This document shows, in pieces, positions 22,258 through 61,500 of a DNA stretch of 64,000 nt. A program made the position numbers and the translations under genes. Under the pieces are notes generated by a model. The model was not told the origin of the DNA, made no database searches, and saw nothing but the letters and a program-made list of their open reading frames with translations. The stretch's first letter is position 1. Every line of letters begins with the position of its first letter. Source of the stretch: Diacronema lutheri (Eukaryota; Haptophyta; Pavlovophyceae; Pavlovales; Pavlovaceae); contig JAGTXO010000011.1 in NCBI GenBank assembly GCA_019448385.1, positions 186,001 through 250,000 on the forward strand, read 5' to 3'.

Positions 22258-22303
<46 letters not shown>

Positions 22304-29395: not shown

Positions 29396-29679
29396 TTCTG
29401 TTCTCTGGCGGGACGGGAACTCGCGAGAAGCCTCTGCGCGAGTGCGCGGCAGTCCGCCGCCGCAGCGACGGTCGCGCGACGCCTCCGCCGCGCGCTCGAG
29501 GTGGACGCGGCCAAAGCCGCGAGCCGCGCACGGGCCCCGTTGGTGTCGCCGCTCGCGCTCGCGCCGCCGACGAGATGGGGCGCAAGCTGGCTGGCGCCAC
29601 GACGACGAGTCGGCGATCGGCGAGCGCGCGGAAGAGGGGAAAGCCTCGGCTCGTGTTTGAACTTTGAACAAGGGAAGGG
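29396..29679. promoter_or_regulatory. Divergent promoter region
   Basis: 284 bp separate the start codons of the oxidase (minus) and the 1,551-residue protein (plus). Both promoters must lie here or overlap the coding ends, so the two genes may share control. No TATA box or other core element was recognised. Confidence 0.5.
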
Positions 29680-34639: not shown

Positions 34640-35048
34640 TCGTATAGATGGTCAAGCCAAATCCGATCAGGGGCACGATCGAGCGCCCCGAGTGCAGCGC
34701 GGGCCATTCGGAAGGACGTCCTTGTGAGGGAGCTCTTCGCGTTTGGCGAGCGGGGGAGCACGACGCGCAGCGTTGCTGCGGCGGCGTGCGGGCGGCGAGC
34801 AGCGGTCGGGCTGCTCGCGACGAGGCCGGAGCAGACGGCGCCGTGGCCGCCGGCGCAGGTGACGCGCGCCGACGAGCCGTAGCGAGCGTCCGTGATCCGC
34901 ACGGCGGTTGGAGCGGGCCGGCTGGTGCGGCGCGCTCGGCCACGGGTGGCGGCGTGCACGGGCGTGCCGAATGCGGTACGCGTCGCCAGCCGCGCGCGAC
35001 CTGGGCAGAGCCCGCAAAGCGTCGACCGCTGCGCGGCTCGGCCGTGCG
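34640..35048. other. Gap between convergent genes
   Basis: 409 bp between two convergent stops. No gene is supported. If the Fanzor gene belongs to a transposon, the element's downstream end and any guide-RNA-coding segment would be expected here, just after the Fanzor stop. I could not find a terminal repeat. Confidence 0.4.
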
Positions 35049-37790
35049 TCAACGCCGGCCGCGCTTCGGCCCGCGCGCGCTGCCGCCGCCGGCACTGGCG
35101 CTGGCAGCTCCGCGGGCGGGGGTGCGGGCGCGAGCGCCGCCGCCGCCACCGCCGCCGCGCCCGCCGCCGTCGTCGCCACCGCCGTCGCCGCCGCCGCCTC
35201 CCCCGCCGTCATCGTCGTCGTCGCCGCCGCCGCCTCCGTCGCCGTCGCCGTCGCCGTCGCCCTCGCCGCCGCCGCCGTCGCCGCTGGCGTCGTCGTCGTC
35301 GTCGTCGTCGCCCTCGTCGTCGCCCTCGTCGCCGCCGTCGCCCTCGTCGTCGCAGTCGTCGCCCTCGCCGTGCACCATGCGCTCCTCACGCTCCCACACC
35401 TCGCCGCGCGCCCACCAGGCGAGCACGAGGGCAAAGCGCTCAGGCGTCGACGTGGTGTCGCGCCCGGCCGCGCGCGCCGCAATGTCGTGCACGTCGTAGA
35501 AGATGTTGCGCGCGGCGTTGTAGTCGCGGTGCACGGGCTTCTTGCCGCCGTTGCACGCCGGGCAGATGACGAGCGCGTGCACCGTGCGCGTGCCGCCCTT
35601 TGCCACGGGCAGGCGCGGGTTCTGCGCGAGCTCCGCGCCGCAGCGCTGCAGCCTGCCGCCCTTGGCGAGCCGCGGCATCGAGCAGTGCATCGACGTGTAC
35701 GGCTCGGGTACGAAGACGGCCGCGACGCCGCGCCGCCGCAGCTCGCGCAGCAGCCCCACCTGGAAGGCGGGCGGCGCGCCCTTGGGCTGCGCGCCCTTGT
35801 GGTCGTGCAGCCACTTGCCCACGCACACGAGCAGCCGGTCGCGCGTCACGCCGTCGACGCAGTGCGCCGCGATGAGCGCCTCGGCGACGCGCGCCGCGTT
35901 GGACCGCCCGCCGCTGTCGCGCCGCCAGCGCTCCTTGCGGCGCGCCGGCGCGTCGTACACGTGCTCGGCGGCGCGCTCGCGCACCCGCGCGCTCTCGCGG
36001 TGGAAGGCGATGTATTTGCCCGCGTCGAGCACCTTGGCGCTGTGCGCCTCGCCAAGCCGCGCCTCGTCCGCCTCCACGCTGAACTCCTCGCCGCGCCCGT
36101 CGGTGCGCACGCGCCGCCGCGCCGCGTTGGTCTTGGCCGTCTCGCGCGCAAAGCCCGCGGCGCGCGCGCGCGCGCGCTGCGTGAACTGCCGCCAGACGGC
36201 CGCCCGCCCGACGTGCGCAGAGTAGGTGGTGATGTTGCCCATGTTCGGGTCGGCCGCGACGACGACCGCCTCCTCGATGTCGATCGCCCGCCGCAGCTCG
36301 GAGCCGAGCGCGACGGCGATGCGCCCGTCCGGCCGGCGCCAGCGGTGCAGGACGCTCGAGCTGCCGGCCGGCGCCTGCGCCTTCGGCACGAGGACGGTCG
36401 CGACGGCGTGCACGGCGACGCCATCCGTCACCACCGACGTGACGGGCTGCCGGCCCGGGAGCGGCACGCGCGGCAGCGGCGCGAGGCCCACCCACGAGCG
36501 CCGCGCGTGCCACGGCAGATCGGCCGGCGGCCGCTCGCGCCCGGCGTAGTCGAAGACGCGGTTGGAGATGTCGAAGCGCGTCGCGAAGACCGCGTACCTG
36601 ACGCGCACGTCGGACATTGGCGGGACAAACGAGCCGCCTTGAGCGGTCCACTTGATCGGCTCGCCATCGTGGTCGCGCAGGTCCAGCGCCTTGAGCCGCG
36701 CGCGCAGCTCCTTGCGCTCGTCGTCCGGGAGCGTCTCCCAGATGGCGTTCGCGGTGAGGCGCACGTTGCGCGGCACCTGCGCGCAGCGCGCGGCGCGCGA
36801 GCGCGCGGGCGCGTGACCAACCTGGCCGCGGGGCGGCGCGCACGGCGGCGGCGCGCGCGCTTGGGCGCTCGGCGGCGGTAGCGGCAGCCGCGCCTCGCGC
36901 GCACATTGTGCGTGCGCAGCGGCGCCACGTTATACCGCGGCGGCCGGTCGGTGAGCTGCGTGTACAGGCGCGCGAGCCGGCAGAGCAGCGCCTGCCCCTC
37001 GGCCACGTGCTGCAGGTTGCGGATCTGCACGAGGAAGTAGCGCGTCGTGTGCCGGTCGTAGTTCCACCTTTTCGTGGGCGCGCACTCGTAGTTGATCTTG
37101 TGGAGGACCATGTCGGGCAGGTGGCGGTCGAGCGCGGCGGGGCAGCCGACGCGCGCGCCCTCCACGTCGCCGCGCAGCAGCCGCTCGCACAGCTCGCGCA
37201 CGCGCGCGTTTCGCTGCATCTCGGGCAGCGCGACGAGCGCCTCGTCGCGCTCGACTGCCGCGCGGACGACGTCGCGGAGCAGCCCGTTCACGACGCGCGA
37301 TGGGTGCATCAGGCACGCGGTGGACACCTGCGTCGCCTCCTCCGCGAGGATCTTATCGAGGCCCACCGCGCAGACGGGCTGGACGCCGTCGGCCATCTCG
37401 CCGACGGCGCGCGCCGTCGCCGCCTTGGTCTGCGCGGCGGCTTGCTCGGCGGGCTTGCCTCGGGCCGCTGCACCGTACGTGCTCACGTCCTTGTGCCAGC
37501 CGATCGCCGAGAAGATCGCACGGACGGTTCCCTTGTCCATCGTGGTCGACGTGTGCACGCTGGTCGACGGGCCGCCCGACGCCGCGCCGACGGCCTGCGC
37601 GCTCGCCACCGCAGCCTCGTCGCGCACCACCTTGTTGATGACGCGGTACGCCTGTGTCGTGAGCCTGTGCACGGCCGCCGCGATGCGCCGCAGCTCCTTC
37701 CGCGCACCGGGCTGCGCCGTCACCGCCTGCGGCCCCGCGTTGAGCGTCGAGCGCTTGACCACGAAGCCCGGGAGCACGCTGCCGCGCGTG
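35049..37790 (-). other. Fanzor (eukaryotic TnpB-like) nuclease domain, C-terminal end of the giant gene
   Basis: Fanzors are eukaryotic relatives of transposon-encoded TnpB and act as RNA-guided DNA nucleases. The N-terminal part (VLPGFVVKRSTLN, then HRLTTQAYRVINKVV) matches the family start. A spliced joint at 36904/36777 leads into PRNVRLTANAIW. The RuvC-I aspartate lies in VVAADPNMGNITTYS near 36,250. The second acidic residue is in VPEPYTSMHCS near 35,705, directly before the zinc ribbon, the displaced glutamate position known for Fanzors. The zinc ribbon uses Cys in MHC, RCG and CPAC. The third RuvC motif, RDYNAARNI, lies near 35,520. All catalytic acids expected are present, so the domain looks intact. 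The tail is a long Asp/Gly acidic run ending in a basic PKRGRR. Confidence 0.85.
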
Positions 37791-40700
37791 CGCGCCGTCG
37801 CGCCGCCGGCGGCGCGCGCGCTCGGCGCAGCGGGCTCGTCCACGCGCGCGCGCTCGACGCCGCGCGCGCGGGGAACGCTCGGCGCGCGCGCGCCCGCGGC
37901 GTCGCGCGCGCTCGCGGCGGCACCCGCCACGGCGCGCTTGCCCGCGGCGCCCGACACGCCGTGCGCGCGAAGCGGCGCCGACGCCAATGCCGACGCCGCG
38001 CCCGCGCCGCCGCTGCCGCTGCCCGATCCGCCCGCGCGCCGCTTCTGCTCGTCGCGCGTCTTGCGGAACTGGGCGACGAGGTCGCTGCTCACGTTGGCCT
38101 CAGGCTCCCACGTGTCGGCGCTCTCGTCGTAGCCCCGCCACCTGATCCGGAACTCGAACGTCAACTTCTTGCCCGCCTTGCGGCGCTCGTCGACGACCGC
38201 CTCGACCTCGTACGTGCGCGCCTCCTCGTCGACGCTCGCGCCCGCCGCGCTCGCGCCCGTGTCCGGCCACCCAGCGACCGTGCCGCCCAGCCTCTCGGCG
38301 GCCGCGCGCAGCTGCCGCTCGCGCTGGGCGGCCGCGGCGCCTCGCGCGACCAGCGCGGGCAGCATGCCCGCGCCGCCCGCGAGGCCGTGCGCGCCGACGC
38401 TGGCGGTCATCAGCGCGTCGAGGCACGCGAACGTTGCGAGCGCACGCGCGCCATCGTCGCCGCCGCGCGGCTGCGAGCGCACGACGGGCGATGGCCGCGG
38501 CTCCCCCTCGGCCGCGAGCAGCGGCCAGATCGCACTGGCCAGCGCGACGGCATGCGCGCCGACCGCGGCGGCCACGTCCGCGTCGAGCGGCGCAAAGTCG
38601 TAGCGCACGAGCGCGGCCGGGCGCGAGTCGTCCGTCGGCCGGTCGGCGACGAGCAGCCCGACCGGGCGCGGCGGCTCGCCGGACGGCGCGGCGACGGGCA
38701 CGCAGAGGAGCACGACGAGCAGGCGCGGCGTGCCGCCGAGCAGCGCGCGCGCGGCATCCGCCCCGTCGGCTCCGCAGCGCGCGGCCGCGGCGAGCAGCTC
38801 GGCCGCGCGCGTCGGGCCCAGCGCCGTGCGCGCGTCCTTGCGCGCGCGTGCGCGCGCCGTGTACGCGGCGCAGGCGTCGTCGAGCGCCGCCGCGCTGGGC
38901 GCGGTGCCAGTCGTCGCCCACGCGCGCAGCGCGTCGCGCACCCGCGTGACGATCGCCTGGTCGACTGCCGCCTCGCCGGCAGCGTGCGCCGGCGCGCACG
39001 CCGGCGGTGCGGCGGCAGGCGCGAGCGCGGGCGCGCCGTCGGCGCCGTCAACGCCGACGGCGCCGTCGGCGCGCCGCCACGCGAGCTTCGCCTCGATCTG
39101 CTGCCGGACGGCGTGGCAGTGCCGGTCGATGCCGCGCGCGTCGTCGAGCGCGGCCAGCGCGTCCTCAGCGGCGGGACGGTCGCTCGCGTCCGCGACGGCC
39201 TGCAGGCAGAGCAGCGCGGCCGCACGCGCGTTGCACGCGCTCTGCGGCTCGGGCGCGAGCGCGAGCTCGAGCTCGAGCGGCGACGCGCCTCGCGCCGCGG
39301 CGATCGCGTCCATCAGCACGTCCAACCGCTGCACCAGCGCCCTGTGCGCGTCGCGCGGCGCGCCCGTCGACGGCGCGCGCGAGCGCGTCGCCACGAGCCC
39401 GAGCGCGCGCGCCGGCGCGCCCGCCGGCGTGTGCAGCACGAGCAGCGCCGCGCCCGCCAAGCTCGCGTTGCGCGTGACGAGCGCGAAGATGCGCGACGCC
39501 TCGTGCGCGCCCACCGACGCCCAGATCGCAGCGCGATCGGCGTCCGTCTGCGCGTCGCACAGGTCGCGCACGTCGTCCGGCGCGAGCAGCGCGCCGCCGC
39601 CGGCGGAGCGCGCGACGATCGCCCGCGCCTCCGCCACGAAGACGGCCTGCGGCAGGTCGGCGTGGCGCGCGTCGACGATGGCGCGCGTCGCGTGCACGCC
39701 GAGCTCCACGCCGCGGTAGAAGGCGCGCGCGTTGGCCGCGCGCGCGTGCGCCGGCCGTCCGTCCGCGTTGCGCCTCGCGCGCGCCTGCTTGCTCGTGCGC
39801 GCGAGGCCGTCGCGTGGCGGTGGCGGCAGCGTAGCGAGGAAGCGCGCGGTGGGCGGCGGCGCGCGCACGCCGCGCTGCCGCCGTGCGATGGCCGCGAGCC
39901 GCCGGCCCGCCGCGCTGCCGCCCGCGCCGACGTGCTGCCAGCGGTTGAGCGCCGCCGGTGGCGGCGGCGGCGGCGGCGCGGCGGCGGGCGGCGGCGCGAC
40001 GGCGGGCGGCGGCGCGGCGGCGGGCGGCGGCGCGGCGGTGGGCGGCGGCGCGGCGGCGGGCGGCAGCGGCGGCGGCGCGCCGGCGACGGCAGCACCAGTC
40101 GGCTTGTCCGCCCACGCACCCGAGACGCTGTCCCAGGCCTTGCCCGGTGGCGCGCGCCCACGCGGCCGCGGGTGGCGGGCTCGAGCGGCGGGGGGCGGGC
40201 GGCCGGCGCGCCAGTCGAAGACAGGTGCAACCGTGGCGGCAGGCGCCGAGTGCCGCGCGTCGGTCACAGAGCGCGTGGTGCGCGCGGCGACCGTCGCGCG
40301 CATGGCGGGCGGGCGGTGAGCAGCGCCCGCCGGCGCGCCGGCGGGCGCGGCAGCCGGCGCGCCGGCGGGCGCGGCCGCCTCGAGCCCGGCGGAGGCGCCG
40401 CGCTTGCGCTTGCGCGTGCCGCCGCGCGTGCGCCTGCGCGCGCGCCCGCCGCGCGCCCGTTCGGCCTGCGCGTCGCCAGCCGCGTCGCCGGCCGCGTCGC
40501 CGCGCCGCACGTAGACGACCGCGAACGCCTCCTCGCCGGTCCCGTCGACGCCGCCGCGCGCGCGGCGCAGGACCGACCGCCACTGCAGCCGCCGCGCGCG
40601 GCCGGGCTCGCACGCAAACCAGCGCCCACCGCGCCTGACGACGGCCACAAAGTCGTCGTCGCGCCGCCCGCGCCGGCGCGTGCGCAGCAGCACGCACTGC

Positions 40701-43700
40701 ACGTCGAGCCAGCCCTCGTGCCAGTCGGCCGTGCTGGGGGCGACGCGAATCGACTGCGGGAGCTCGACGCCAAAGCCGGCGAGCCGCACGATGTGCGCGA
40801 CGATGACGCTCGAAATGGCGGGGGCGCTCGATGGGTCGCCCGCTGCAGCGAGCACCGCCCCGCCCCAGTGCTCACGCGTGACGCAATCCGCGTCCTCGAC
40901 GTGCACGTGCGCCACGCTCGCGCCGAGCTGGTGCAGCAACGCGCAGATGTCGGCGTCGACCGTCCTCTCCTCCTCGGCCGCCTCGGCCGTGCCGCGGGCG
41001 GCGGCGTCGCCTGCCGGCTGCCCGAGGTACGCGATCGCCCGCTCGACGGCCGCGCGCTCCGCACGCGCTGCGCTGTCGATCGCCGCATTGCCGACGGGCG
41101 CGCGCAGCGCCGCGATCGCGTCTTGCAACGCCGTCGCGTCGCCCGTCGCCGCCGTCGCCGCCACCGCCGCCGCGCTCGCGGTGCCGTGCGCGACGGCGTG
41201 CAGCGCGGCGGCGCGCGCGGCGGGGATGCGCCCGTCCAGCGCGAGCACGAGCGGCGGCCCGGCCGGCGTCTGCTGCCGCCGGTGCCGCCGGCTCGCAGCC
41301 GGGTGGTCGGCGCGCGCGCGCTCGAGCCGCGCGCGCCGCTCGACGACGCGCGCCCAGAAGGCCTGCACCCTCGGCTGCGCGAATGCAAGCCAGCCGGCGC
41401 CGCGCGTCACGACGTGCACGACGATCCGGTCCTCGTGCCTGAGGTACTGCACGTAGAGCGCTTTGCGCACGCCGAGGACGTGCATGCCGAGCTGCAGCTG
41501 ATCGCGGTGCGGCTGCGGCGGCCCGTCCTCGTGCGCCTTGGCGTCCGCCTTGGTGAGCGTCTTCACCTCGACGAGGACCTGCTCGTTGTCTTCGGGGAGG
41601 ATGGCGAGCCCGTCCGGCGAGAAGGCGAACGGCGCGCTCTTGTCGTGCGGGTCCGCACGCACCATCGGCAGGTTGCACACGACGGTGATGCCGTACGCGG
41701 CCGCCAGCTTGCGCAGCGCGACGGCCTCGCCGAGGATGCCCGCGGTCGTCGCCTTGGTCCGCACCTCGCGCCGCCGCCGGTGCACGTACTCGTCGGTGAG
41801 CGTCTCGTGCGCGACGCCGGCGTTGTCGTTCACGACGTCGCCAACCTTGCTGCCCGTGACCTCCTCCCATCGCTCGTCGTGCCAGCGCGGGCTGCGCTGC
41901 GCGGGCGCGCCCGCGCCGACGGCGTCGAGCACGCGGCGCAGCGCTGTGCCGTCGGGCGCAGCAGGCACGCGCGCGCGGTCCTGGGCCTCGCGAGCGTCGA
42001 GGACGCAGCCCGTAGTGGAATCTTGGGGTAGGTCGAGCTTGCTCGCCTCGCCGTAGCGGCTCTCCAGCTGGCGCGGTGCGTCGGCAGGGCCGCCGTCCGT
42101 GCGCGCACCCGACGCGCCCGCCAGTGCACGGGGCGCAGCGTCCGGGGCGCCCGCCGCGCCCGCGCCGCCGCCAATCGCGCCAGCGCACGCGCGCGCCGCG
42201 ACCTGCGGACGGCCAGCCGCAGGGACCTCGTCCGCTCGGCCGGCCGCTGCGTCGGCCGTCCGCTTGGCCACCTCGCGCACGTCTCCGAGCGCGAGCGTGG
42301 CTGGCGCCGTCGAGCTCCCGTGGCGTTTGTTCCAAAACTCGAGCAGCCCGCCAAGGAAGGGCGTGCCCGTCGGGCGGTCCTCGGGCACCTCCGCCAGGAT
42401 CGCGTCGACGCGCAGCGCGGCCGCCACATCGCAAAACGCGCGCGCGGCGCGCGCCATCCGCTCGGCGCGCGCGCCGCCGTCGTCCGCCGCGCGGCGGATG
42501 GCGTGGCTCACGTGCGCGACGCGGAGCGAGACGACGGCGTGCGCCGGCGCGTCGGCGCCCGTGCCGAGCGTGTGCCGCCGGATGGCCAGCTGCCCATCGC
42601 CCATGCGCGGCGGCAGCGACGCGCACGCCGCGACGGTCGTCTTGCCGGCCGCGCTGTCGCACAGCCAGCTCGCCTCGCCGCCGCCCGCAAACTCAAAGGT
42701 CGCGAAGCCCTCGCGGCCGAAAAGCGCGACGAAGTGGTCGAGCACCGCCTTGTTGATCGCGCGCGCCGCCGGCCGCGTCGATGCGCCGCGGGCAGCGCCA
42801 CCCGCCGCGCCGCGCGCATCGCTGCACGTCGCGGGGCAGGTGCAGCCGGACGCGCGCACGCCGTCCGACCGCGTCCGCGGCAGCTCGAGCTCGCGCACCT
42901 TGGGGCAGAACCAGAGCGGGTTGGACGCCTCGAGGCACAGCACGACGAGCCGCCCGTCCGTGCCGGCCAGCGCGCGCGCGTCGCGCAGCAGCTCGACGGC
43001 GAGCTCGGACGTCGCCGCGTGCACCGCCGGCTCGCCCGTCGCGCGGTCGGGCGGGAAGAGGCCGCCGCCGACGAGCGGGCTGGGGCAGCGGCCGAGCATC
43101 ACGAGCAGCGGCGGCGGCGGCGTCTGCGGTGCCTGCTGCCCGACCGCAGCCGCCGTCAGCCCGGCCAGGTCGGAGCTCGTGCGGAGGGCCTTGAGCGCGA
43201 CGCGCGAGCCGGTGCCCGCCTGCTCGGAAAACGTGGCGAGCATGGCGCACGTGCTCGCCCTCGCGCCGCACTGCCAGCTGACGCGCGCGAGGAGGCCTTC
43301 CAGCGTGTCGTTTTCGCGCGGCCGCGTGACCGCGTCGAGCGCCGCCGAGTCGAGCTGGAGGCTGCCGGGCGTGACGCACAGCACCGCCTCGTGGTAGGCG
43401 CGCAGCAGCTCCCTCGGCAGCTGCTCGGCGGGCGTCGCCGCCTGCCCGCCCACCCACCGTGCACCGTGGCCGCCGTCGCCCGCGCCCGCGAGCCGCACCG
43501 CCGGCCCGCCCGTGATCGCCGAGGTCGGTGGCGTGCCGAGCGCGTCGACGAGCGCGCGCACGGGCGCGACACGCCTGCGCGCAGCGTCCGCGCCGACGGC
43601 GAGCGCGGCGATCCGAGCGCCCTCCCATGCGCGCTCCCTCGCGTCGTCCCGCGCGGCCGCCGGCGCGGCGCCCGGCCGCGCGCCGGGCGGCACCGCGCAC

Positions 43701-45593
43701 GCCGCCGCGACGACCTCCGCGCGCGCGCCGGCGGCGTCGGGCGCGTGCAGCTGCGCGAGCGCGCCAGAGAGCGCGGCGGCCGAGCGGTAGCGGCCGTGCG
43801 CCGCGACGAGCGCGTAGAGCACGCGCAGCGCGGCCACGCCCGCCTGGTCGGGCGCGTCGTCAGCGATGCGCTCGACCTCCCACGTGCGCGTGGGCGGCGG
43901 GCTGCCGTCGGCCGGGTCCGGACGCAGCGCCCACGCGCGCTCGACGATCGCGTTGAACACGCCGTGCGCGGCGCCCTCGTCAAACTCGGCGGCGCCCGCC
44001 GCGTGCGCGCACCACCCGTGCACGCGCGACGTGGGCGCGTCCACGGCGCGCTGCACGACGAGCACCGCCGGCCGGTCGACGCAGCCGAGGCTCACCGCCG
44101 CGTGCTTGCCCTCGAGCAGCGCCGCCGCCGCAGCCTCGACCAAGGCGTCACCAGGCGCGTCGCCGACGACGACGGCACAGCCGTCGCCGTACTCGGCCTG
44201 CATCGCGGCGACGCACGACGCGACAAAGTCGCCGCCCGCGGCCGCCGCGTGTCGCGCCGCCAGCATCCGGCGCGCGATGGCAAGCCAGACGTACTCGGCC
44301 GGCGCGCGCGCGGCGCGCGCGCGAGGCGCGCCGGCCGCGCCGCGTGCGCCAGCGCGTGCGCCTCCAGCGGCCGCAACGGCCGAGGCGGCTGGAGCGGCGG
44401 TGAGCGTGCGCCGCGCGCGCTTCGCCGGCCGCGTGATGGGCGATGCACCCGCCGTCGCCCCGCCCGCAGCAGCCGGTGCGGCCGCCACAGCGCCCGCCGC
44501 AACGCCACTCGTCACGACGCCCGTGGCGGGCGGCGCGGCGGCGGACGCGGCCGCCTCGACGGGCGTCGCGCAACTACCGCCAGCGGTCGCGGACGCGCCC
44601 GGCGACGCGTCGGCGAGGAGGTGGCGCAGCACGCCGCGCGCGAGCGCGACTCGCACGGCGAGCGTCAGCGCGCGCAGGCGGTCGGAAGGCGAGGCGTCGC
44701 GCTCGGCGTCGGCGGACGTGGCGGCAGCAGGCGAGGCGGCGGGCGGCGCGGCGGCGGGCTGGGCGGCCGCCGGCGCAACCTCGTCGGCCTTGGCCAGCCA
44801 GACGAGCCCGGCGACTGCGAGCACGACGCTGTACGCGCCGACATCGTCACCCGCAACGCGCGCCAGCCGGGCGTGGGCGTCGGCCTCGGACACGGCGACG
44901 TGGAAGAGCACGTCGTCGCGGGCAGCTTGCTCGGCAAACTGACGCAGCTGCTTGGCCATCGTCACGCCGGCGACGCACGCCTCGCCCGCCTCTGCCTCGA
45001 CCTGCTCGTCCTGGCCGATGGCGGACGCGCCGGCCTCGGCGCCAGCGTCGAGTGTCCGGCGGCGCTCGAGGGCGAAGCCACGCACACAGACGCTCTGGGG
45101 GCCGCCGAGCGCGCCCGCCTTCTCGTGCAGCGCGCACGACAGCTCGACCACCGAGTCCACGCGCCTCGCGGCGGCGCCCCCCCGCTCGCCGCGCGTGGCC
45201 GCGCGCACGACGAACACCGTGAATTGCGCGCGCTTCGCCGCGCGCGCCGACGCGCACGCGTGCTTCAGGAGCCGGCAAAGCGCGGGCCTTTGCGCCGCTG
45301 CGCCCCGCGTGCACAGCAGCAGTTGGCCGCGCTCGTCGCCCAGCTCCTGCTCGATGGCGGCCTCGAGCGCGTCGTCCGTCAAATCGCCGTGCTCCGTCGA
45401 GGCGAGCGCGCGCGCAGCCGCGAGCGCCAGCTCGCCTGCGCCCGCGCGCCGCCGGCGGCGCGCACCGGCGGGCGCGTGCGGCGCCGACGCGTGTGACGAC
45501 GCCGCCGCGTCCGCGCGCGCACACGCGGCGCGCAACGCCTCACGCGCCGAGGCGGCCGCGCGCGCCCTGGGCGCGAGCTTCAAGAACGTGCGC

Positions 45594-45686
<93 letters not shown>

Positions 45687-48600
45687 TCGCCCTCGTCGCC
45701 GGCCGGCGGCGGCGGTGGCGGCGGTGGCGGCGCGGCCACGGCGGCGGCAGCAGCGGCGGCGGCGGCGGTGGCGGCGGCGGCGGCGCCCAGCGCGGGCGGC
45801 GGCGGCGTGGCGGCGGCGGTGGCGGCGGCGGTGACGCCAGCGGCGGCCTTGGCGCCGCGCGTCTGCGGCGGCGTTTCGGCGCGATCGGGGCTGCCCCCGC
45901 CACGCACCGCGCTCGTGACCGCGCAGACGCCGCCCGGCGCACGATCGCTGGCCGCGCCGGTCAGCGCGACGCGGAGGCGCTCGCCGACAGCGTACATGTC
46001 CGCCACGCTGAACGTGCGCGGCGCGGACGAGCAGCCCGCCGCGGCGAGCGCGTCGTTGAGCGCGCCCACTATCGCGAGGCCGCACGTCGCGCCACGCTGC
46101 GCCGCCTCGTTGAGCAGCAGCGCGCGGCGCACGCGCGAAATGTCGAGACCCGCCGCGTGCAGCGTGGCAGTTATCGCCTTGGCGAGCATGAGCGCCTGCC
46201 TGCAGGGCGACGCGAGCGTGTCGACGAGCACCGCGTCGTAGCGATGCTCGCCCGCGCGCGCGACGCGCACAAGGCGCAACGCGGTGAAATGGCCGGAGGC
46301 GAGCTGCGCGCCGTCGTCACCGCCCGCGCCGCCGCGCTCGTCCGACGGGCTCCACACGCCGATGACAGCCTGCGTTGTCGCCTCGCTGCGCAGGCGGTGC
46401 AGCAGCGCGGCGCGCTCGGCGCCGTCCTGGAACACCGCGGGTTGCGCGGCGAGCGGCACGTGGCAGACATGCCCGCCGCCGGCCTGCCCGTGCACGCGCA
46501 GCACGACCTCGCAGCACGCGTCGACGGTTGAGGCGAGCATGTCGCCGCTGGCGATGCGCTCCACCTCTGCCTGCGGGAGGCCGGCGCTCGCGGCGGCGGA
46601 GGCCAGCCGGCGCGCAGCCGCGTCGCCCGCCCACGCCAGCAGCGCCGAGTTGGCGGGTTGGAGGGGAAGCTCAAGGGCGGCTGGTTCGGTGGCGGTAGCC
46701 TCGTTGGCAACGGGCACGTTGGCGGTGCGCACGTTGGCGGCGGGCGCGGCGGCGATGGCTGGTGGGGCGGAAGACACGCCCGCGGCGGCAGGCGCGGACG
46801 CGACAGCGGCAGCGACTAGTGGGGCGGGGAAAACGCCGTCGGTGGCTGGCGCGGAGGCGAGTGCAGGAGCAACTAGTGGGGCGGGAAAATCGGCGGCAGG
46901 CGCGAAGGCGGATGCAGCAGCGGCTAGTGCGGCGGGGAAAACACCGTCGGCGGCAGGCGCGAAGGCGGATGCAGGAGCGCCCAGCGGGGCGCAGAAAACA
47001 CCGTCGGCGGCAGGCGCGAAGGCGACAGCAGCAGTGGCCAGTGGAGCGGAGGCGCAGGGCCACGCGCGCGCCAGCCGTGCAAGCCCAAGCCGCGCGCGAG
47101 CGACGCACGCGCCGATGGCCGAGGCGGCGGCGCAGGCCACGACGTGGCCTGGCACCGGTGTGGCCAGCCGCTCGCGGGTGTGCACGTCGAGCCGCGCCCC
47201 ACGCCAAGAGCGGCGGCGCGCTGAACGGAGGCGCGCGACCCCGATCGATCCGCCCGCGCACGCGCGCGCCGGCTCAGTGTGGCCAACGCGCGCCGCTATG
47301 CAAGGCGCGCGCGCGATAACGGCGGCTGTCGGCCGTGGCGTGCGCGTGGCGGCGCCGCGGCGACGGGCGCGGCACACGAGCCGCTCGGGCGCGCCGCCGC
47401 CGCGCGGCACGATGTCGAGCAGCACGGTCACGCCGCGCGCGCGCGCGACCGCCGTGCACGCGAGCCGCACGGGCAGCGGCGGCCCGTCCGGGCGCGCGAG
47501 CGCCGCCACCTCGGCGTCGGTGAGGCTGTGCAGCTCGCGGCGCGCGCGCGCGAACGCGGCGATGTCCGCGCGCAGCTCCGCGTCCGTGCCGAGCGCGGCA
47601 CGCGCGTGCACGGGGAGCGACGCGCGCAGCGCGTGGAGCACGCCGCCGCGCGCGCCGCGCGGCGCCGGCGCGCGATCGCGCTCAGCGCGCGCGGCGCGCG
47701 TGAGCTCGCGCACCGCGCGCGCGAGATTGCGCCGCGCGGCCGCGACGGGAGGGCTAGGTGCGCGCGCGCGCCGGTTGTAGCGCGGCCGCGCCGAGTCGAG
47801 GGGCGGCGGACGCGGTGCGTACGCCGCGGCGCGGCCCGCGCGCCAAAAGGCCGGCGGCGGGCGCAGCTCCGTCGCGTCGACCGCGGCCGCGAGCGCGCCG
47901 AGCGCGGCGTCGCTGTCGCCCGCCGCGTCGGCCGCGTCGACGAGCACGAAGAGCGCGCCGAGCGCGCGCGACGCGGCCGCCTGCGCGGCGGTGGGGCGGG
48001 CGCAGGCAGCGACGCATGCGGCCGCCATGCCGCGCGCCGCGGCGAACGCCGGTGACGTGACGGCCGCGCCGATGGCAACGGCGGCGGCGGCGACGGTCGA
48101 GGCGGCAGCGCCGGCGATGGAGGTGGCAGCGGCGGCGGCGCTTGCCATCGCGCGGCGCGCGAGACGCGAGGCGCCACCGACCGCCGCCGCCGCAGCGCGC
48201 GCTGCGCGCGCGCCGGTGGCGCGCATCGTCGCCGCGCCAGGCGCCGCCGCGCCGACGCCGCCGGCGCCCGCGCCGTCGCCGCTCTCGGCCGTGCAGGGCT
48301 CCGATGGCGAACCCGGCGTGCGCTGGCGCGTGATGCGCGCGCCGAGGCGCGCGCTCCGCGCCGCGCGGCCGGCGACGTCGAGGAAGCGCCGTGCGCGCGC
48401 CGCGCGTAGGCCACGCGCGCGCGGCGGCGCACCGACAGGCGCCGAGCGCCGCGGCGCGCACGCCGGCGCGTCGCTGTCGGGTTGCGCAGCGCGCGCGCGG
48501 GAACTCGGTGCGGCGTGTGCGGGCGGCGGGCGCGCGCCCGCGCGGCGCAGAGGCGCGAGGCGCCGGCCGCAGACGAGGCGTGTGCGCAACCAGGACGGCG

Positions 48601-51600
48601 AGGGCCGCAGGGCGCCGTCGACGTCGCGCATCGGCGGGCCGCGAGCCCGCCGCGCAGCCGTGCGGCGCGCGCGAGGCGCTCGGCGGCGCGCGCGCCGCAC
48701 GGCGCGCGCGGCGGCGCGCACGCCAGCGACGGCTGCGGCCACGCCGCGCGCCAACACGGCCGCGGCGTGCGCCATCGCACCGAGCACGGCGCGTGGCGCG
48801 CCGAGCAAGCGCAGCAAGCGCGACGCCGTCGCGCGCGCCGGCGCACCGTGTGCAGGGGCCTCGCCAGCGCCAGCACCGACGCCGCCATCGCCGCAGCCGC
48901 AGGTGGCGTCGCCGCCGCCGCAGGCGTCGCGACGGACGCCGCCGCCGCCGAAACAATCGCCGCACACGTCGCCGCCGACGTTGCCACCCCAGCCGCCGTT
49001 GCGTGCGCAGGTGGCTGCGGCGCGTGCGTGCGGGAGGCGTGCCGTGCGGCGCGCATCACACGGGCTGCGCGACGCGAGCGACGCCGCCGGGGTCCCCGCT
49101 GCGCCAGGCGCGCCGTGCGCGCCAGCCTCGCCGGCCTCGCCGGCGCGCGGTCGCGCGCTCGCCTCGACGTGGCCGCCTCCGCCGCCATCGCCGCCGTCGA
49201 ACCGGGCGGCGGAGGGCTGCCGCTCGAACCGCTCGTCGGCGTCGGCCGCCACCGCCGCCTCGCGCTCCGCCGCCGCGGCGGCCGCCGTACGCGCGTGGCG
49301 GAGCGCGCGGCCGCCGTCCGCTGCGCGGCGTGGCGGCGCGGGCGCCGCCTTCGGCGCGCGCGGCCCCTCGGCGCGCTCGCGGAGCACGGCGAGCGGCGTG
49401 CCCGTGGCGACGCTCGTGCAGACGCGCCGCAAGGCGGCGCTTACGCACGCGTGGACGACGCGCGCCGTCCGCTTGTCGGCGGCGCGCGCGGCGCGGCGCG
49501 CGGCCTTGGCGGCGGCCTTTTTGGCGCGCCTCTGCTCCGCCTGCTCCGACAGCGCGCGCGCCTGGCGCTCGGCTGCGAGCGCGTCCTCGGGCGAAACGGT
49601 CGGCCTCGGCGGCCGCGCGCGCGCGCTGCGACGCTGCGCGCTGCGGCGGTCGGACGGCGGCTGCCGCGGCGGCGAGGACGGCGAGCGCGAGCTCGGCGTG
49701 GGCGACCAATCGCCGCTGACGGTTGCGAGCGGCGCAAACGGGTTGTCGTCCCCGCGCCCCGCGGCGTGCGACAGTGCACGCGGCGTCGGGCGCCGGCCGA
49801 CCGCTGGCGGGCCCCACTCGGACGGCGGCTCCGAGGGCGAGCGCGCCGTCGGCGCCGCGCGTTGCGCGGCCGGCGGCGCCTCCCGGTCCAGCGCCGCCTG
49901 CTCTCTCGCCGCGGCCTGCTCGTCACCCTCCGGCACGCCACGCGGCGCGAGCACCGCGGTGGCGCAGCGCGTCGCGTTGAGCAACGCCGCCTCCATCTGC
50001 CGCACGCTGGCCTTGGCGCACGCCACACCCTGTCTCGCCCGGCGCAGCGCCTCGTGCGCGCGGCGCACATCCGCGTCGGCATCTTCGCGCATGCCGAAGT
50101 GCGCCTGTTGCAGCCGCAGGTCCGCAGGGCGCCCCTGCGCGCGAGGGGCACGGGCGCGGCGGCGCGCGGGTGACGGAGCTGGCGCGCCGTTCTGCGCTGC
50201 GCGCACGCCAATCGACGGGCGCGCGCGCGGCGGGGCGCGCGCGCGCGCGCGCGCGCGCGCTGCCTACCCAGCCGCCGGCCGGCTCGCGCGAGCGCGCCAG
50301 CTGCTCCGCCGCCTCGGCGTCGAGCACGCGCTGCTGCGCCTCCTCCTCGCCCAGTGCAGCGAGGTGCAGCCGGCGGGCTGCCTTGCGGCAGTTGCCCTCC
50401 GCCTTGCCCACGGCCTTGCGCGCCGCGTCGACGGGGTCGTCGTTGGCTCTGGCGCGCCTGCGCTTGCCCTTGTCGGCGGGCGGCGGCTCGGCGCGCTGCG
50501 GCGCGCCGAGCGCGTCGTCGGCTCCGCGCGCGGCCGCCCGCGGGCGGCGGGCCCCAAAGAGCGCACCGGTCGCCGTGCGCGCCGCGCAAGCAACGACCAG
50601 CGCTGACACGCCGGCGAAGACCGCACCGCCCAGCGCCACGGTTGCCACGATGCGCAGCGTCCCGTGCGCAGGCCGCGCTGCCTCCGCCGCCGCTTTGGCG
50701 GCCTCGCGCGCGCGCGCATCGGCGGCTCTCATCTCGTGCAGCAGCCCGGCCGCGCCGCTCGCGCCGTCGCGGCCGCGCGCGAGCTCGCACAGCACCGCCG
50801 CCGCGCGCCGCGTGGGCTCGCGCGCGAGCAGCTGCGCGCCGCCGTCGGGGCGCAGCTTCTCAACGAACTCGGCAAACGTCGCGTCGCGCCAGAGGGACAT
50901 GCGGAAGGCCCTGTGCACCGCCCCCTCTTGCTCGCGCATCCGCCGTGCCGCCCGCCTGCCGTCGCGCGCGTGCGCGTGCGCGGCCGCGTCGAATCCCGCG
51001 ACGCCGCGCTGCGCGTCGCGCGCGTCCGACGACGGCGCCGCCGCGCTGCCCGCCAAGGGCGCCGCAGCGGCGACGCGCGCGTGCGGAGCGACGGGATCGC
51101 CGGCGGCCGGCGGCTCGGCGCGCTGCGGCGTGCCGTTTGCTCCGCGCGCGGCCGTCCCGGGGGAGATGGCCGCGATGGCGCCACCAGCCGCGCCGTGCGC
51201 CAGCCACGCGCATAGGCTGCCGACGAGCTCGCCGAAACCCCCGACGGTCGCCGCGGCGGCGAGTGCGCCGGGCTTGCCGGCCGACAGCGGCTCGCGAGCG
51301 TCGTCGTCGCAGCCGCCGGCACCCGTCTTGGCGAGTGCGTCGCGCTCGCCCTCGACGCCCGCCACGACCGCCGCCCCTCCGTCGTCCGCCGCGCCGGCCG
51401 CGCGCGCGGCCGGGCGCAGAGGAGGCGTGCCGGTGCAGCCGTCGCCGCTCGTCTTCGCCGTTTCCTCCACCTTGATCGCTTCGTCGCCACCTGCGCCATC
51501 TCCGACGCCGGGGCCCTTGGTCACGCTTGCCGCCATGCGCGCCGTGCCCGCCGGCCAGCCCGCCGACTGCTCGAGCGCGGCGGCGAGCGGCGCGACGCGC

Positions 51601-53945
51601 GCCGACTCGGGCGCGCTCTCGTCATCGGGCTCGGGCGCGTTGTGCAGGCGCGCGAGCGCGCGCTCGACGGCCGCGGCGCCACTGCCGGGGGCGCGGCTCG
51701 CCGCGCGCACCGCGCGCCGCCAGGCCGGCGCGAACATGAGCGCCGACTCGAGCGCCGCGAGCGCGCGCGCCTCGCGCGCGTCGCTCGCGCCGAGGCGCGG
51801 CGGCACGCGCGCGGCGCCGCGCGGCGCGGTGCCTCGGAAGCGTGGGCTCAGCGTGTAGGCGAGGTGCTGCGGCACGCCGCGCGCCTCCGCGCGCGCGCGT
51901 CCGTCCTCGACCTCGCGCCGCGCCTTCGCGATCGCCGGCGTGGCGCGCGCGAGCCAGTCGGGGTCGGCGGGCAGGTGGATCACGACGAGAATCGGCGCCC
52001 AGTCCAGCCGCGGGTTCTTGTGACGGTCGGGCACGACCCACACGAGCAGCACCGTGCCCTCCGCGCCGCACGCCGCCTCGTAGATCCTGGGCTGCGAGCG
52101 CCAATCGGGCCTGACGCGCAGCGCCCGCGCGTGGTCGATGGCGGCGGCGCGGTCGCCATTGAAGTGAACCGTCGTCACCTCGCCGTTGACGGACCGGCCG
52201 GACCGCCAGCAGAACACCGCGTCCGCCGACCCGCCGGCGATGGCCGCGAGCGATTCGGGCGCGGCGAGCCGCGGCAAGCCCTCGAAGGCGGCAAAGTCCT
52301 CGTGCGCAGTGTACACGCCGCCCCAGCCGTCGTGCGCGTACGCGCGCGCGGCCGCTCGTACCGCGCGCGGCTGGTTCTCCACGCCCGACGTCATGTGCCG
52401 TGTCGTCCCCGCGAAGCCGGGCTCGCCCAGCTCGGCCCGCACGACGGTACCGTACCCCGCGCCCTGCGTCGGGGCGGCGAGGTGGTGCATGCCCGCGCCG
52501 GTCACGCCCTCCGTGCGCTGCCGCGTGACGATCGTGCCCGTCGCGTGCGCGAAAAGCGTGTCGACCACGGCGGGCGCGCGCCCGCTGTTCGCCCGCAGCC
52601 GCGCCCTACCCGCTTTTAGCTGCTCGGGGTCCTTGGCGTCGTACACGCGCGCGTCCGCGTCGCCCTCATCAGGCGCAGTGTAGACGCAGCGGCGTTCGAG
52701 CGGCGCCGAGCCACCGCCGTCCGCCGCCGCCGGCGAGGTTGGCGCCGCGCCCGCCGCCACCGCGCTCGTCGCCGCCGTGCCCGTCGCCACCGCCGCAGCC
52801 GCCGCGCCCGCGAGGTCGTCGTCCCCGTCCTCCGCGCCCTCCCCGTCGTCAGCGGTGGTGGCGTCGCCATCGTCCCCGTCGCCCTCGCCCCCGCCGAGGA
52901 GGCTGAATGGTCGGGGCCCCCACGCCGAGGCGGCGCGCCGCTGCGGCGCACGCGGCGGTGGCGCTCGCGACGGCGGCCTTGGCGCCGCCGCGCCGCGCGG
53001 CCTGGCCGCCGTCGACAGCGCGCGGCCTGCAGCGCCCGTGAGCGCGTCGAGCGCGGCCGTGCGTGCGATGCGGTCGTCGGGCGCGCGCAGCGCCGCCTCG
53101 ACGGCCTGCAGCAGCCCGTCGGGCGCGGATCCGCCGACACTGGCATCGCACGCCTCGGCGAGCCGCGCGGCCTCGGCGAGCCGCGCGGCCTCGCGGGTGA
53201 ACGGGCCGAAGCGCCTGGCGCGGTCGCCGAGCAGAGCGCCGATGGCGGCGCGGAGCGTGCGCGCGCGGGTCTCCTCGTACGCGGCCGTCGTGAGGCGCGC
53301 GAGGCGCGCGTCCAAAGCCTTCTTGATCTCGACAAGGACATTCGCGCGGCGGCCGTAGAGCGTCGATGCGCTCGCCGCGACCTCAGCCGCGACTGTTGCC
53401 GCGGCGAAGCAACACGCGGCCCCACTCTGCGGGGGCGCCTTGAAGGCATCGATGGGCGGCGCTGTTCTGCCGATGCGCTGCGCAAGCTTCTTGATGAGCA
53501 CGCCGGCCGCCGTGGCGTACGCCGATTCGCCGTTGCCCAAGGTGCGCGAATCGGCGAGCAGGGCGAGCGCGGCGCCGGGCGGCGCGCCGCGCTGCGCGGG
53601 CGGCGCGAGGAGCAGGTACGCCGCCGTCCAGTGCGCGAGGCCGCTGGACGCGCGGAGGCAGAACGGTAGCACGACCACGAGCACCTGCCCAAACCGGTCC
53701 GCATCCGCGCATGCTTTGCGCAGGTTGCGCAGCGCCACCTTGAGCGCATGCTGCGAGCACCCCGTGTCGCCCAGCATAACCCTGCTCGTGCCGAAATCCG
53801 CGTAACGCAGCAGGGCGATGAGGCAAGTGGATGGGACCACGTGGGGGTGGGTATCTCCCGGCGACAGAATGGTGCTGAGGGCCAGCGAGAAACTGTCCGA
53901 GCCGCCCCGCCCGCCGCGCAAAGCGTCCTTCACGGAGTCCTCCAT
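35049..53945 (-). CDS. Giant multidomain protein: Ulp1-like proteases, YqaJ nuclease, chromodomain, Fanzor
   Basis: Three exons, 53945-50268, 50191-36905 and 36776-35049, join in frame and give about 6,230 residues. In order: a C48/Ulp1-like protease (His105, Asp132, Gln173, Cys179); a basic/acidic linker; a membrane-like segment near 1,095-1,120; a coiled coil spanning the first splice joint; Ala-rich hydrophobic stretches; tandem 57-bp repeats; a second C48-like domain near 2,435-2,625; Ala-rich and poly-Ala linkers; a YqaJ-type nuclease near 3,995-4,155; a Pro/Ala repeat region; a chromodomain near 5,215-5,265; and a Fanzor from about 5,360 to the end. The 76-bp first intron is short and is the weakest joint; without it there would be two overlapping genes. 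The second intron (128 bp, GTGCGC...GCAG) is well supported because it joins Fanzor halves. ATG 53945 follows a CAG, so an earlier exon is possible. No DDE, integrase or HUH transposase domain was seen. Confidence 0.6.
38080..38225 (-). other. Chromodomain
   Basis: The sequence YEVEAVVDERRKAGKKLTF, then FRIRWRGYDESADTWEPEAN, is a textbook chromodomain. An aromatic at the first position, the RWRGY strand and the TWEPE motif supply the three aromatic-cage positions that bind methyl-lysine of histone tails. It lies about 100 residues before the Fanzor start in the same frame. Chromodomains are used by several transposon proteins to target chromatin. Confidence 0.9.
39953..40078 (-). repeat. 15-bp coding repeat, about seven copies (PPPAA)n
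   Basis: GCGGGCGGCGGCGCG units with minor changes. They encode a Pro/Ala linker between the YqaJ and chromodomain parts of the giant protein. Confidence 0.8.
41400..41900 (-). other. YqaJ/lambda-exonuclease-type nuclease domain
   Basis: The region reads SPRWHDERWEEVTGSKVGDV, GILGEAVALRKLAAAYG, FSPDGLAI, LVEVKTLT and RDQLQLGMHVLG, in the order and spacing of YqaJ-family exonucleases. The catalytic set is visible: Glu in GILGE, Asp in SPDG, Glu and Lys in EVK, and the Gln of QLQ. Such enzymes are 5'-3' or recombination-type nucleases of phages and are also carried by many eukaryotic transposons. The domain looks complete. Confidence 0.85.
45595..45686 (-). repeat. GCC trinucleotide repeat coding about 30 Ala
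   Basis: About 92 bp of uninterrupted trinucleotide repeat, translated as poly-alanine in the giant protein just after the second protease domain. Its length is likely variable. Confidence 0.9.
46000..46560 (-). other. Second Ulp1/C48-like protease domain
   Basis: The His-Asp-Gln-Cys order of SUMO/Nedd8-type C48 proteases is visible: His in SGHFTALRLV (about 46,290), Asp in AVLVDTLASP (about 46,220), Gln and Cys in AQRGATCGLAI (about 46,080). Spacing fits the family. Two later stretches of the same protein (near 45,200 and 43,850) look like degenerate copies without the cysteine. Role is inferred only: self-processing or removal of SUMO-like tags. Confidence 0.65.
46755..47045 (-). repeat. 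Degenerate tandem repeat of about 57 bp, five copies, coding
   Basis: Units with GGCGGGGAAAACACCGTCGG and GGCAGGCGCGAAGGCG recur about every 57 bp. They encode Ala/Pro-rich repeats with the motif APAADGVF in the giant protein, just before the second protease domain. Confidence 0.75.
53370..53660 (-). other. First Ulp1/C48-like protease domain
   Basis: AHWTAAYLLL (His105), LLADSRTL (Asp132) and PPQSGAACCF (Gln173, Cys179) give the catalytic order of C48 cysteine proteases, with the Gln-to-Cys spacing of Ulp1. It lies close to the N-terminus of the giant protein. Confidence 0.6.
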
Positions 53946-54469
53946 CTGCAGACTGTGGGCACGTCAGTGTCCGGATGGCGGCCCGGATGATACTTGGGAG
54001 AATTTACATGATGCCCTGGAGAATGCCCCGCTCTCCCACAACCAGGACCCGCCAGCGCGCCGAGCCTACTCGTTTGCCCGCGCCGCCTCTCTTTGCGCGC
54101 CCGAGCGCGGCCTCCGAGCGCGGCCAACGTCCTCCGGGGGCGTGCATCGTGGCTGCTCGGAGGGGCTGCGACGCGGCGAAAGCTCGCTGCGCGGCCGCAA
54201 CGTGAGCGCGCGCGCGCGGCCGCGCGCCGGCCTGCGCTGCTCTGCACGGCCGCGCGCCGGCCTGCGCAGCCTCGTCGCGCAGCGTGAGCGCGAGCGCGCG
54301 CGCGGTGAGCTCGGCGGATGGGTGCGCGGCGGCGTTGGCGGCGGGTGCGGCGGCAGGCTGGGCGGCGGGTTTGGACGGAGAGTGTCGGGGAAGAACGGGG
54401 CGCATCCTGGTTGGGAGTTGGACGGCGCCCACCACGCGCTGGCGGATCCTGGTTGCCACCACCACCAAA

Positions 54470-59929: not shown

Positions 59930-61500
59930 ACCGCTGACCGCGCGGAGCACCTCTTTGAAGACGACGGTGCGCGTCACATGGTCCGGGCCAAGCGCAAAGC
60001 GGATGCGCGACGCGTGCCCGACGCGCGAAGCGGCCACGTAGAGCTGGCCGTGCGTGAAGCACGGCTCGGCGAGCCACACGCCCGCGCACCCGAGCGCTTG
60101 ACCCTGCGCCTTGTTACGCCGGCCGCACCGGGAACTGGCGGTGCAGCCATGCAAACGCGAACGTGCCCTCGTCGGGCGAGTGGTGGTCGATGCGCGCGAT
60201 GAGCACGGTGCTGTCGCGCCCGGCGGCCGCGCCGGGTCGCGCGCACTCGAGCAGCCGGCCGCCGGCGCGCACGCCGCGCACGACCAGCCGCGTGCCGCTG
60301 CACAGCCCCTCGCCGAGCGAGAGGAGGCGAGTGGCTACGAGCTCCGCCGGGTAGGCCGAGACGCCTCGGGCAGCTGCACGGGATCGAGCGGGAATGCGCC
60401 GGGCATGGCCCCCGCAGGCGGCACCGCCGCGGGAAAGGCGCCGTCGCCGAGGCTGCGCGGCAGCTTCGCCCACTCGCCCGCGCCGAGCGCGTCGCCCGTG
60501 TCGCGCGCCGCGTTCGAGGCGCGAGAGTTCTCGACCAAGGCGTACGGCCGATCGTGCTGCCACGATGCCGAGTACTCGAGGCAGGAGCGCACGATCTGCG
60601 CGCGCGAGCCGCGCCGCACCACCGGCAAGCACTGGCAAAAGTCGCCGGCGAGCAGCAACGTCTTGCCGCCGAAGCGCTCGTCGACGCCCGTCACGTCGCG
60701 CAAACACCGATCGAGCGAGTCGAGGCGGCCCCGCTTCTGCATCGGCGCCTCGTCCCCCACGATCATTCGCCGCGGCGGCCACGGAGCGCCCGCGCTCGGA
60801 GCGCGGCACGCCATTGAACGGCTTGCCCGTCCGAGTCGGCGCCGACGGGCACCTTGAAGGTCGAGTGGAAGGTGCGGCCGTCGGGCAGCAGCGTGGCGGC
60901 GACGCCCGAGGACGCGCACACGACGACCGCGTGCCCATCCGCGCGCACGGCGGCGATGATGGCGCGCTCGACGAACGTCTTGCCCGTGCCGCCCGGCGCG
61001 TCGCAAAAGTGCAGCCGGTCGCCCACGCCGCGCAGCGCCGAGTCGACGACCGCGCCGTGGAGCGCGCGCTGCTGGCCGGTCTCGGCCATCGCCGCGCGCG
61101 CCGCCGCCGCGCTCGCAGCCTGCTCGGCGCGATCGTAGCCCTGCGCGCGCGCGAGCTCGCGCCCGCCCGGCCCGGCCGGCGCGCGCGCCGTGCGCAGACC
61201 GGCCACCGCCGCGAGCGCCGCCGCGCGCTCGCGCTCGTCGGGCACGTACAGCCCCGTGGAGTCGAACGTGTCGGCCCAGGCGGCCACGCTGTACGAGGCG
61301 AAGGCGTCCGAGCCGGGCTGCGGCCGCTGCTCGGCGCGCTTCGGGAGCATGACCCCGCACACGTTCCACTTGGTGCCAAACATCGAGCCCGTGAGCCCCG
61401 TGTAGACGCAGTCGAGCTGCGTGGCGATGGCGCAGACGTCCTCGTGCCGGATCTCGTCGACCGGTTCGCCATCCGTGGCGTCCAGGATGGCGACTGCGCC
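59930..61500 (-). pseudogene. Pif1/Helitron-type DNA helicase, broken
   Basis: The order of SF1B helicase motifs is clear although they fall in different frames. FGTKWNVCGVML lies near 61,380, Walker A in DAPGGTGKTF near 60,990, ASSGVAATLL near 60,900, motif II in VGDEAPMQK near 60,760, motif III in LLAGDFCQCLPVV near 60,640, LCSGTRLVV near 60,290, HRQFPV near 60,130, KAQGQAL near 60,100 and the last motif, HGQLYVAASRV, near 60,030. The DEAPM box and the GLC-NGTRL and RQFPV segments are typical of Helitron and Pif1-like helicases. The reading frame changes about three times, so this copy looks inactive unless exons are missed. No HUH Rep domain was found upstream within the window. Confidence 0.75.

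Follow-up and report, generated by a model that had tools for sequence, protein, structure and literature searches.

A Fanzor nuclease and a YqaJ-type exonuclease share one giant predicted protein in a high-copy mobile element of Diacronema lutheri

Introduction

Helitrons carry a PIF1-type helicase, and IS200/IS605 elements, which are about 2 kb in size, make no target duplication. Fanzors ride in transposons as separate proteins and their job there is unclear (PMC3627910, PMC10432273, PMC10711439, PMC6338049; accessible parts of each). The Fanzor motif has been defined as D-X(125,275)-[TS][TS]-XX-C4-X(5,50)-RD (PMC3627910, accessible part). A Fanzor fusion of the kind reported below is not described in the accessible parts of these four papers, and Fanzor fused to such domains does not appear in titles and abstract openings on related topics. 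A full-text search of 5.39 million papers, with subscription journals mostly outside its coverage, returned no mention of Fanzor together with YqaJ. Here, we describe a gene of the haptophyte alga Diacronema lutheri that joins the two. The gene (35,049-53,945) lies in a 64,000-nucleotide stretch of contig JAGTXO010000011.1 (positions 186,001 to 250,000, forward strand, assembly GCA_019448385.1), which we call the window and to which all coordinates without a contig label refer. The genome compared is the 43.49-Mb assembly of 103 contigs, in which the window is C37:186,001-250,000.

We favour, with a probability of about 0.6, the reading that this is the main gene of an element present in about 200 copies, that it is predicted to encode one protein of 6,211 residues, and that it likely works, together with the element's PIF1 helicase, as a machine for cutting, resecting and copying DNA. 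The anatomy of the element is the firmest part of this reading and we hold it with high confidence. The mechanism is tentative, and we would sooner bet against it than for it.

Results

The gene, like all features of the element given below, is read on the minus strand. Three stop-to-stop frames cover it, of 4,611 codons (36,428-50,263), 1,346 codons (49,923-53,963) and 626 codons (35,049-36,929). They combine into a spliced model of 6,211 residues with two predicted introns and zero internal stops. Exon 1 (50,268-53,945) starts with the ATG at 53,945 and is followed by predicted intron 1 (50,135-50,267; 133 nt, GTAGGC...GCGCAG, GT-AG, phase 0), which contains a (GC)n run. Exon 2 (36,905-50,134) lies inside the 4,611-codon frame. 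Predicted intron 2 (36,777-36,904; 128 nt, GTGCGC...GCGCAG, GT-AG, phase 0) precedes exon 3 (35,049-36,776), which holds the C-terminal part of the Fanzor (RuvC D, E, C4 zinc finger, RD), an acidic and glycine-rich tail and the stop. An earlier reading of the locus, made from the sequence only, had proposed a single spliced model of about 6,230 residues with exon 2 open in one frame. The single stop-free model and the open exon 2 both stand, and the length is corrected to 6,211.

At 77-80% GC stops are rare and long spurious frames are plentiful on both strands, and several contigs start at element ends. A chance open frame or an assembly artefact of this very GC-rich genome is nevertheless barely credible. 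When the minus strand (36,428-53,963) was resampled 100 times with a first-order Markov model, the longest open frame reached at most 1,428 codons (mean 754), far below the 4,611 codons of the main frame. The GC content at codon positions 1, 2 and 3 is 0.79, 0.64 and 0.90 in exon 1, 0.82, 0.66 and 0.91 in exon 2 (third position 0.88-0.95 across sub-blocks) and 0.78, 0.57 and 0.95 in exon 3, a periodicity that a chance frame would not predict. Between the window and a copy on contig C71 the indels in exons are multiples of three, or sum to one inside a short cluster; the sole uncompensated indel, +2 at 36,860, falls in intron 2. A divergent family described below keeps a long frame as well. Thus, these results already speak against a chance frame for the main frame, while intron 1 is still a prediction. 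Among 149 listed copies the exon-2 frame has at least 4,000 codons in 102, with a median of 4,501.

The annotated protein KFE25_006464 has the sequence expected from removal of intron 2 (...NVAPLRTHNV-PRNVRLTANAIW...), and in the divergent family coding is continuous at this position. Pieces of KFE25_006464 match C69:1,672,449-1,672,661 and 1,675,006-1,675,254, and between these two stretches lies the Fanzor portion of a copy of the element. This annotated protein joins the Fanzor exon junction of the element copy to a SAM-domain gene (C69:1,672,449-1,675,254, L092 and its neighbours) and reflects either chimeric transcription or faulty annotation. As to intron 1, among the 86 copies listed, seven have an exon-1 frame of more than 3,700 codons. 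The (GC)n run differs by +2 nt (five copies) or -4 nt (one copy) in six of these, which joins exons 1 and 2 unspliced; in three other copies compared the run is as long as in the window. Slippage at the 50.26-kb (GC)n run in place of intron 1 is the less favoured explanation. Our preference for the intron, itself unproven, comes from the triplet nature of the other indels seen in exons when two copies are compared. Splicing of intron 1, and with it translation as one chain of 6,211 residues, are predictions from the sequence.

The Fanzor region (35,412-37,750; residues about 5355-6091 of the spliced model) spans intron 2. Its TNB / OrfB zinc-finger domain (PF07282) scores 28.2 bits in Pfam, above the cut-off of 26.3, and the window protein contains the complete Fanzor motif. 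The residues D176, T361 S362, C365 C379 C405 C408 and R417 D418 are identical in all four aligned sequences, the motif being conserved in P0002 and in the divergent family, and Glu 358 is kept as well. This part is a putative RNA-guided DNA cutter. Homologue searches with the Fanzor returned P0001 (94%), P0002 (45-50%), P0004 (40%) and the chimeric gene model P0003. Structure was of little help here: the model of the Fanzor is unusably poor (pLDDT 39), a profile search of the PDB found only Cas12f1 (E=0.039), and the single sequence gave only chance-level PDB matches. PADLOC gave weak Cas12f-like and Csx1 matches only.

Upstream in the same frame lies a chromodomain (38,060-38,212; PF00385, 45.9 bits against a cut-off of 25.1, E=5.5e-12). 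By eye, its YEVE and IRWRGY stretches would fit an aromatic cage (Tyr, Trp, Tyr) placed as in HP1. The YqaJ / lambda-type exonuclease domain (41,477-41,884) is recognised by PHROG 434 (5.7e-17) and, by profile, by PDB 3syy (E=1.1e-4). It also matches TIGR03033 at 9.9e-7, below that model's own cut-off. The Pfam score of the window copy, 15.8 bits, is under the cut-off of 22, and the C71 copy scores 28.2 bits, over it. E617, D655 and E670-x-K672, presumably the catalytic residues, are the same in both families. A conserved domain of unknown function lies at 42,842-43,429. The exon-2 region 2230-3000 had no homologue among the giant proteins searched.

Two further regions carry by eye a His...Asp...Gln...Cys pattern, namely the unproven, putative cysteine-protease-like domains 1 (53,316-53,945) and 2 (46,004-46,516). 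On sub-pieces covering both, Pfam gave no C48/Ulp1 match at E<=10, and for domain 2 no match of any kind at that threshold. Domain 1 was also modelled, with low confidence (pLDDT 58), and the model had no PDB match at E<=0.001. Separately, a stretch at 47,384-48,016 (-) has by eye the look of an OTU protease, as does L087:1,765-2,367 (-), with no Pfam match at E<=10. This region reads GNDCLLAAV in the divergent family, and the Cys is missing in the window copy.

The divergent family, which we call family 2, was found in the same genome with P0002 as query: among at least 82 matches two copies stand apart (C74:351,370-352,947 and C82:1,476,180-1,477,757), and these are 99.5% identical to each other across 6.7 kb. 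The C74 copy has a single intron-free frame of 4,321 codons (364,284-351,322) with the domain of unknown function, YqaJ and Fanzor. They are 41%, 39% and 42% identical to the window protein, respectively (blastp; 775 columns for the Fanzor), and over 700 aligned codons the two Fanzors agree at 47%. The family 2 YqaJ matches PHROG 434 at 2.7e-8; its Pfam score (16.1) and the TNB score (22.2 bits) are below the cut-offs. The motif residues of both nucleases are nonetheless the same as in the window. At identical Fanzor residues 80 of 238 four-fold sites differ between family 2 and the window, so the likeness is not recent. Since both nucleases stand in one frame of the C74 copy at this divergence, the YqaJ-Fanzor join is old and has been kept. 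The C82 copy has a stop within the Fanzor and its matching parts are spread over two frames. No chromodomain was detected in the family 2 frame (residues 1-1428 and 1429-4321 both scanned), and thus it is seen only in family 1, that of the window.

Together with the Pfam and PHROG matches, family 2 bears on what the sequence-only reading had claimed for this gene. One gene joining YqaJ, chromodomain and Fanzor is supported, with family 2 adding to the YqaJ-Fanzor part, and the motif and catalytic residues of both nucleases are indeed kept. Of the domains it named, the chromodomain and, through TNB, the Fanzor score over their cut-offs, and YqaJ is found through PHROG 434, with its Pfam score in the window staying below the cut-off. 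The Ulp1-like proteases gained no support from the C48 search and the structure comparison. Homologues that are always separate genes had been given as the outcome that would speak against a fusion; the one divergent family found shows the opposite.

The fusion could still be a gene arrangement only, the frame being expressed as several proteins, either from an internal Fanzor promoter or as a polyprotein cleaved by the protease-like domains. Chains this long are rare, and two regions show the His-Asp-Gln-Cys pattern by eye. Against this, indels in the low-complexity linkers of exon 2 are triplets and leave it in frame, family 2 retains the join, and the proteases have no profile support. We therefore consider separate products a serious minority view, and prefer a single predicted chain.

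The gene is part of a much larger unit that the sequence-only reading saw only in part, missing the high-copy element and the upstream PIF1 helicase. The whole mobile element (34,642-63,981) belongs to a 29.3-kb class. Read 5' to 3', it begins with the left end, followed by the PIF1 helicase and then the polyprotein gene (35,049-53,945), which is its main gene, and closes with the right end. The right end is common to 20 other copies, in which similarity breaks off at the identical place and the flanks beyond differ (L014 entered this comparison without a flank and L021 with one flank base only). The left end was placed by copy alignment. A genome-wide count that tolerated one mismatch gave 226 occurrences of the right-end pattern and 200 of the left-end pattern, and 0 of the reversed-pattern controls. 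The Fanzor part has at least 94 genomic matches at 95-100% identity, the first part of exon 1 at least 86 at 98-100%, and the helicase start, taken as in the C71 copy, at least 96. Listed together, these amount to at least 183 loci. At about 200 copies, each no longer than 31 kb, the element would take up a few Mb, perhaps a tenth of the assembly by a rough estimate.

For the pairing of ends, 100 listed right ends were set against 92 left ends, with 8 other left ends lying on contigs outside the right-end listing. A left end was found for 66 of the 100, and 34 are unpaired. The motif-to-motif lengths of the 66 pairs fall into 30.9-31.0 kb (30), 29.1-29.4 kb (9, the class of the window), 26.0-26.9 kb (7), 21.4-21.6 kb (12) and others (8). 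Among the matches listed, spacing is constant between helicase and exon 1 in 44 pairs and between exon 1 and Fanzor in 38, and the helicase-Fanzor distance is 25.4-25.5 kb in 24 of 26 pairs. The 21.5-kb class has in common with the others both ends and the part of exon 2 from 46,647 onward, and has a different middle (C14:231,745-253,291 and copies L083, L084 and L085). Its members on C4 and C14 have about 5-6 kb of left-end sequence in common with the window element, and the C14 copy, with an exon-2 frame of 4,190 codons, matches the window again from 46,647 onward over the stretch compared. A simple deletion as the origin of this class was rejected, since the stretch before the equivalent of 46,647 in C14 matches nothing in the window; it has no Pfam match either. 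An empty site was not obtained: the right flanks of the C69 and C36 copies lie in repeats, and the stretches where the left end is expected hold no element sequence. The right-end pattern is found at bases 4-27 of contigs C1, C5, C6, C10 and C12 and the left-end pattern at bases 6-41 of C32 and C49. Several contigs thus start at an element end, and the assembly seems to break at the repeat.

The right end (34,642-34,689) comprises a 20-nt inverted repeat (34,670-34,689), the ATCGGATTTGG box with a second small hairpin, and a TATAC terminus. The left end (63,917-63,981), which includes an 18-bp palindrome (63,917-63,934), reads CTATGTAGGGCGCGG in the window; in the majority of copies read it is [C/G]TATATA. 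Left ends are mostly [C/G]TATATA[G/C]GGCGCGGTCC and right ends ...CCATCTATAC, L082 departing. Terminal inverted similarity is short and imperfect (STATATAGGG / GTATAGATGG). None of 12 junction pairs has a target-site duplication; the longest match of their ends is 2 bases, and matching bases total 10, against a mean of 18.7 in shuffled pairings (the C71 right flank was entered one base late). Both families share the right-end layout of hairpin, ATCGGATTYGG, small hairpin and TATAC, and the small hairpin shows one compensatory pair difference between them (TGG/CCA versus CGG/CCG, as DNA folds). As DNA, the family 2 right end folds with z=-3.06, and 0 of 200 shuffles fold as well. Its pattern, with one mismatch allowed, occurs in six places, of which five are family 2 ends and one (C27) is a family 1 end. 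One of the five (C4:72,715-72,740, L090) has another sequence ahead of the hairpin, and a non-autonomous element may be its source. The 3' non-coding region (34,642-35,048), which the 20 other copies have in common with the window up to the end, is a candidate scaffold for a guide RNA (omega RNA). Rfam reports nothing at gathering score in the window.

The remaining recognised gene of the element is the PIF1-like helicase (60,338-61,469), with PF05970 at 2.7e-23 over 60,431-60,769 and the remainder defined by likeness to the C71 copy. The window helicase lacks the upstream N-terminal part found in the C71 copy, similarity to which stops at 61,469. A helicase of this family, predicted hairpins near the ends and zero target-site duplication would all suit a Helitron-like rolling-circle element with Fanzor and YqaJ as passengers, its Rep lost, diverged or supplied in trans. 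Fanzor1 occurs inside Helitron2 elements of a green alga (PMC3627910, accessible part). However, Rep (PF14214) matches once in the genome, at C63:35,738-36,019 (L047), and C63 is absent among the element copies listed. Moreover, where a Helitron would have TC and CTRR, the element terminates in [C/G]TATATA and TATAC, and the flanks show no fixed target. We therefore judge a Helitron origin unlikely.

PIF1 helicases and YqaJ nucleases are also mentioned in the literature on large DNA viruses, as far as accessible parts of it go, and an endogenous giant-virus or Polinton-like virus multiplied in the genome would explain their presence. No capsid, DNA polymerase or packaging ATPase was found in the frames scanned with Pfam (some small frames lay outside the scan), and a scan of viral contigs, able to reach close relatives only, confirmed none for either the YqaJ module or P0002. 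A virus is thus a very improbable source, and we retain the transposable element.

Two observations concern the interior and the surroundings of the element. Telomere-like TGTAGGG repeats stand inside it in inverted orientation, at 61,671-61,684 (+) and 62,082-62,095 (-). Outside, a Tra1/TRRAP-like gene in two long frames (14,791-27,122, -) adjoins an FAD/ALO oxidase gene (28,130-30,526).

Discussion

How the parts might work together can be outlined as a tentative scheme. DNA cutting would fall to the Fanzor part, directed by an RNA, and the guide might be the transcript of the right end running on into the flank. A guide that reaches into the flank is familiar from such systems. The right flank is different in each copy for which it was read, so each copy would have its own guide. 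The YqaJ part would then chew back the ends by 5'-end resection, and the PIF1 helicase may help to copy the element across, with helicase-aided repair synthesis as the copying step. The chromodomain might tether the protein to chromatin. No enzyme for the initial entry into a new site was found, and one may be concealed in stretches of the protein that lack annotation.

Several results weigh against this reading. A recombinase or transposase of the element was not recognised. Apart from a low-complexity alignment that starts at 1,995, the backing that family 2 gives to the join sets in at about residue 3,460 of the model, and the N-terminal part is drawn from family 1 alone. The exon-2 frame is shorter than 1,500 codons in 17 of the 149 listed copies. 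A crude dN/dS between the window and C71, both young copies, is 1.39 in exon 1, 0.76 in exon 2 and 0.61 in exon 3; purifying selection is not clearly visible in these substitutions, dN/dS being not clearly below 1. Left flanks, 13 and three more inspected by eye, share no motif beside the element, which argues against a simple TnpB-like homing model, since this would want a target-adjacent motif. The right-end hairpins of family 1 fold as DNA with z=-0.99, and 34 of 200 shuffles fold equally well. As RNA two family 1 ends fold unlike the DNA prediction, the C71 end without the small hairpin, and folding of the 407-nt 3' region does not stand out from that of shuffled sequence (z=-1.25). With family 1 folds this weak and discordant, we treat the right-end structure as a lead, not a result.

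A natural fusion of Fanzor and exonuclease that has been kept through deep divergence suggests that both act on the same DNA ends, and this can be tested. If true, the element would be a natural model for the RNA-guided insertion of very long DNA. It also brings to light an element family that may occupy, on the rough estimate above, a tenth of the genome of an alga used in aquaculture. We might go further and speculate that these elements are a new superfamily of giant eukaryotic transposons that spread without a conventional transposase, by RNA-guided Fanzor cutting, 5'-end resection through YqaJ and copying driven by PIF1. The nucleases would be covalently linked in a single protein, which the chromodomain of the high-copy family would steer to chromatin. 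The odds are against so broad a claim at present.

Comparison with known systems places the element between several of them. Cut-and-paste DNA transposons with target-site duplication differ from it, as it has no duplication. The lambda exonuclease and YqaJ recombination nucleases (PDB 3syy, which we take to be the LHK exonuclease) have the same Glu, Asp, Glu-x-Lys and Gln. Unlike them, the domain is here embedded with a Fanzor in a giant predicted protein, and an annealing protein was not recognised beside it. The TnpA-TnpB (omega) systems of IS200/IS605 have hairpins at the ends (PMC3627910, accessible part). Their right end likewise carries a nuclease, which belongs to the superfamily of the Fanzor. 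In contrast, the window element is about 30 kb long, shows no flanking target motif, and has no Y1 transposase partner, PF01797 giving 0 matches at E<=0.1 across the whole genome. Helitron2 shares subterminal hairpins, here predicted, and zero target-site duplication in canonical insertions, and it carries Fanzor1 (PMC3627910, accessible part). It differs from the window element, which has no detected Rep, other terminal bases and no visible target preference. Also close to it are the published elements bearing Fanzor1, which likewise contain a Fanzor with the D...[TS][TS]xx-C4-RD motif within a mobile element. In those, Fanzor1 sits in recognised superfamilies (Mariner, Helitron2, IS4, Sola, MuDR), whereas in the window element, with its transposase unrecognised, the Fanzor forms the C-terminus of a giant predicted protein together with YqaJ and a chromodomain.

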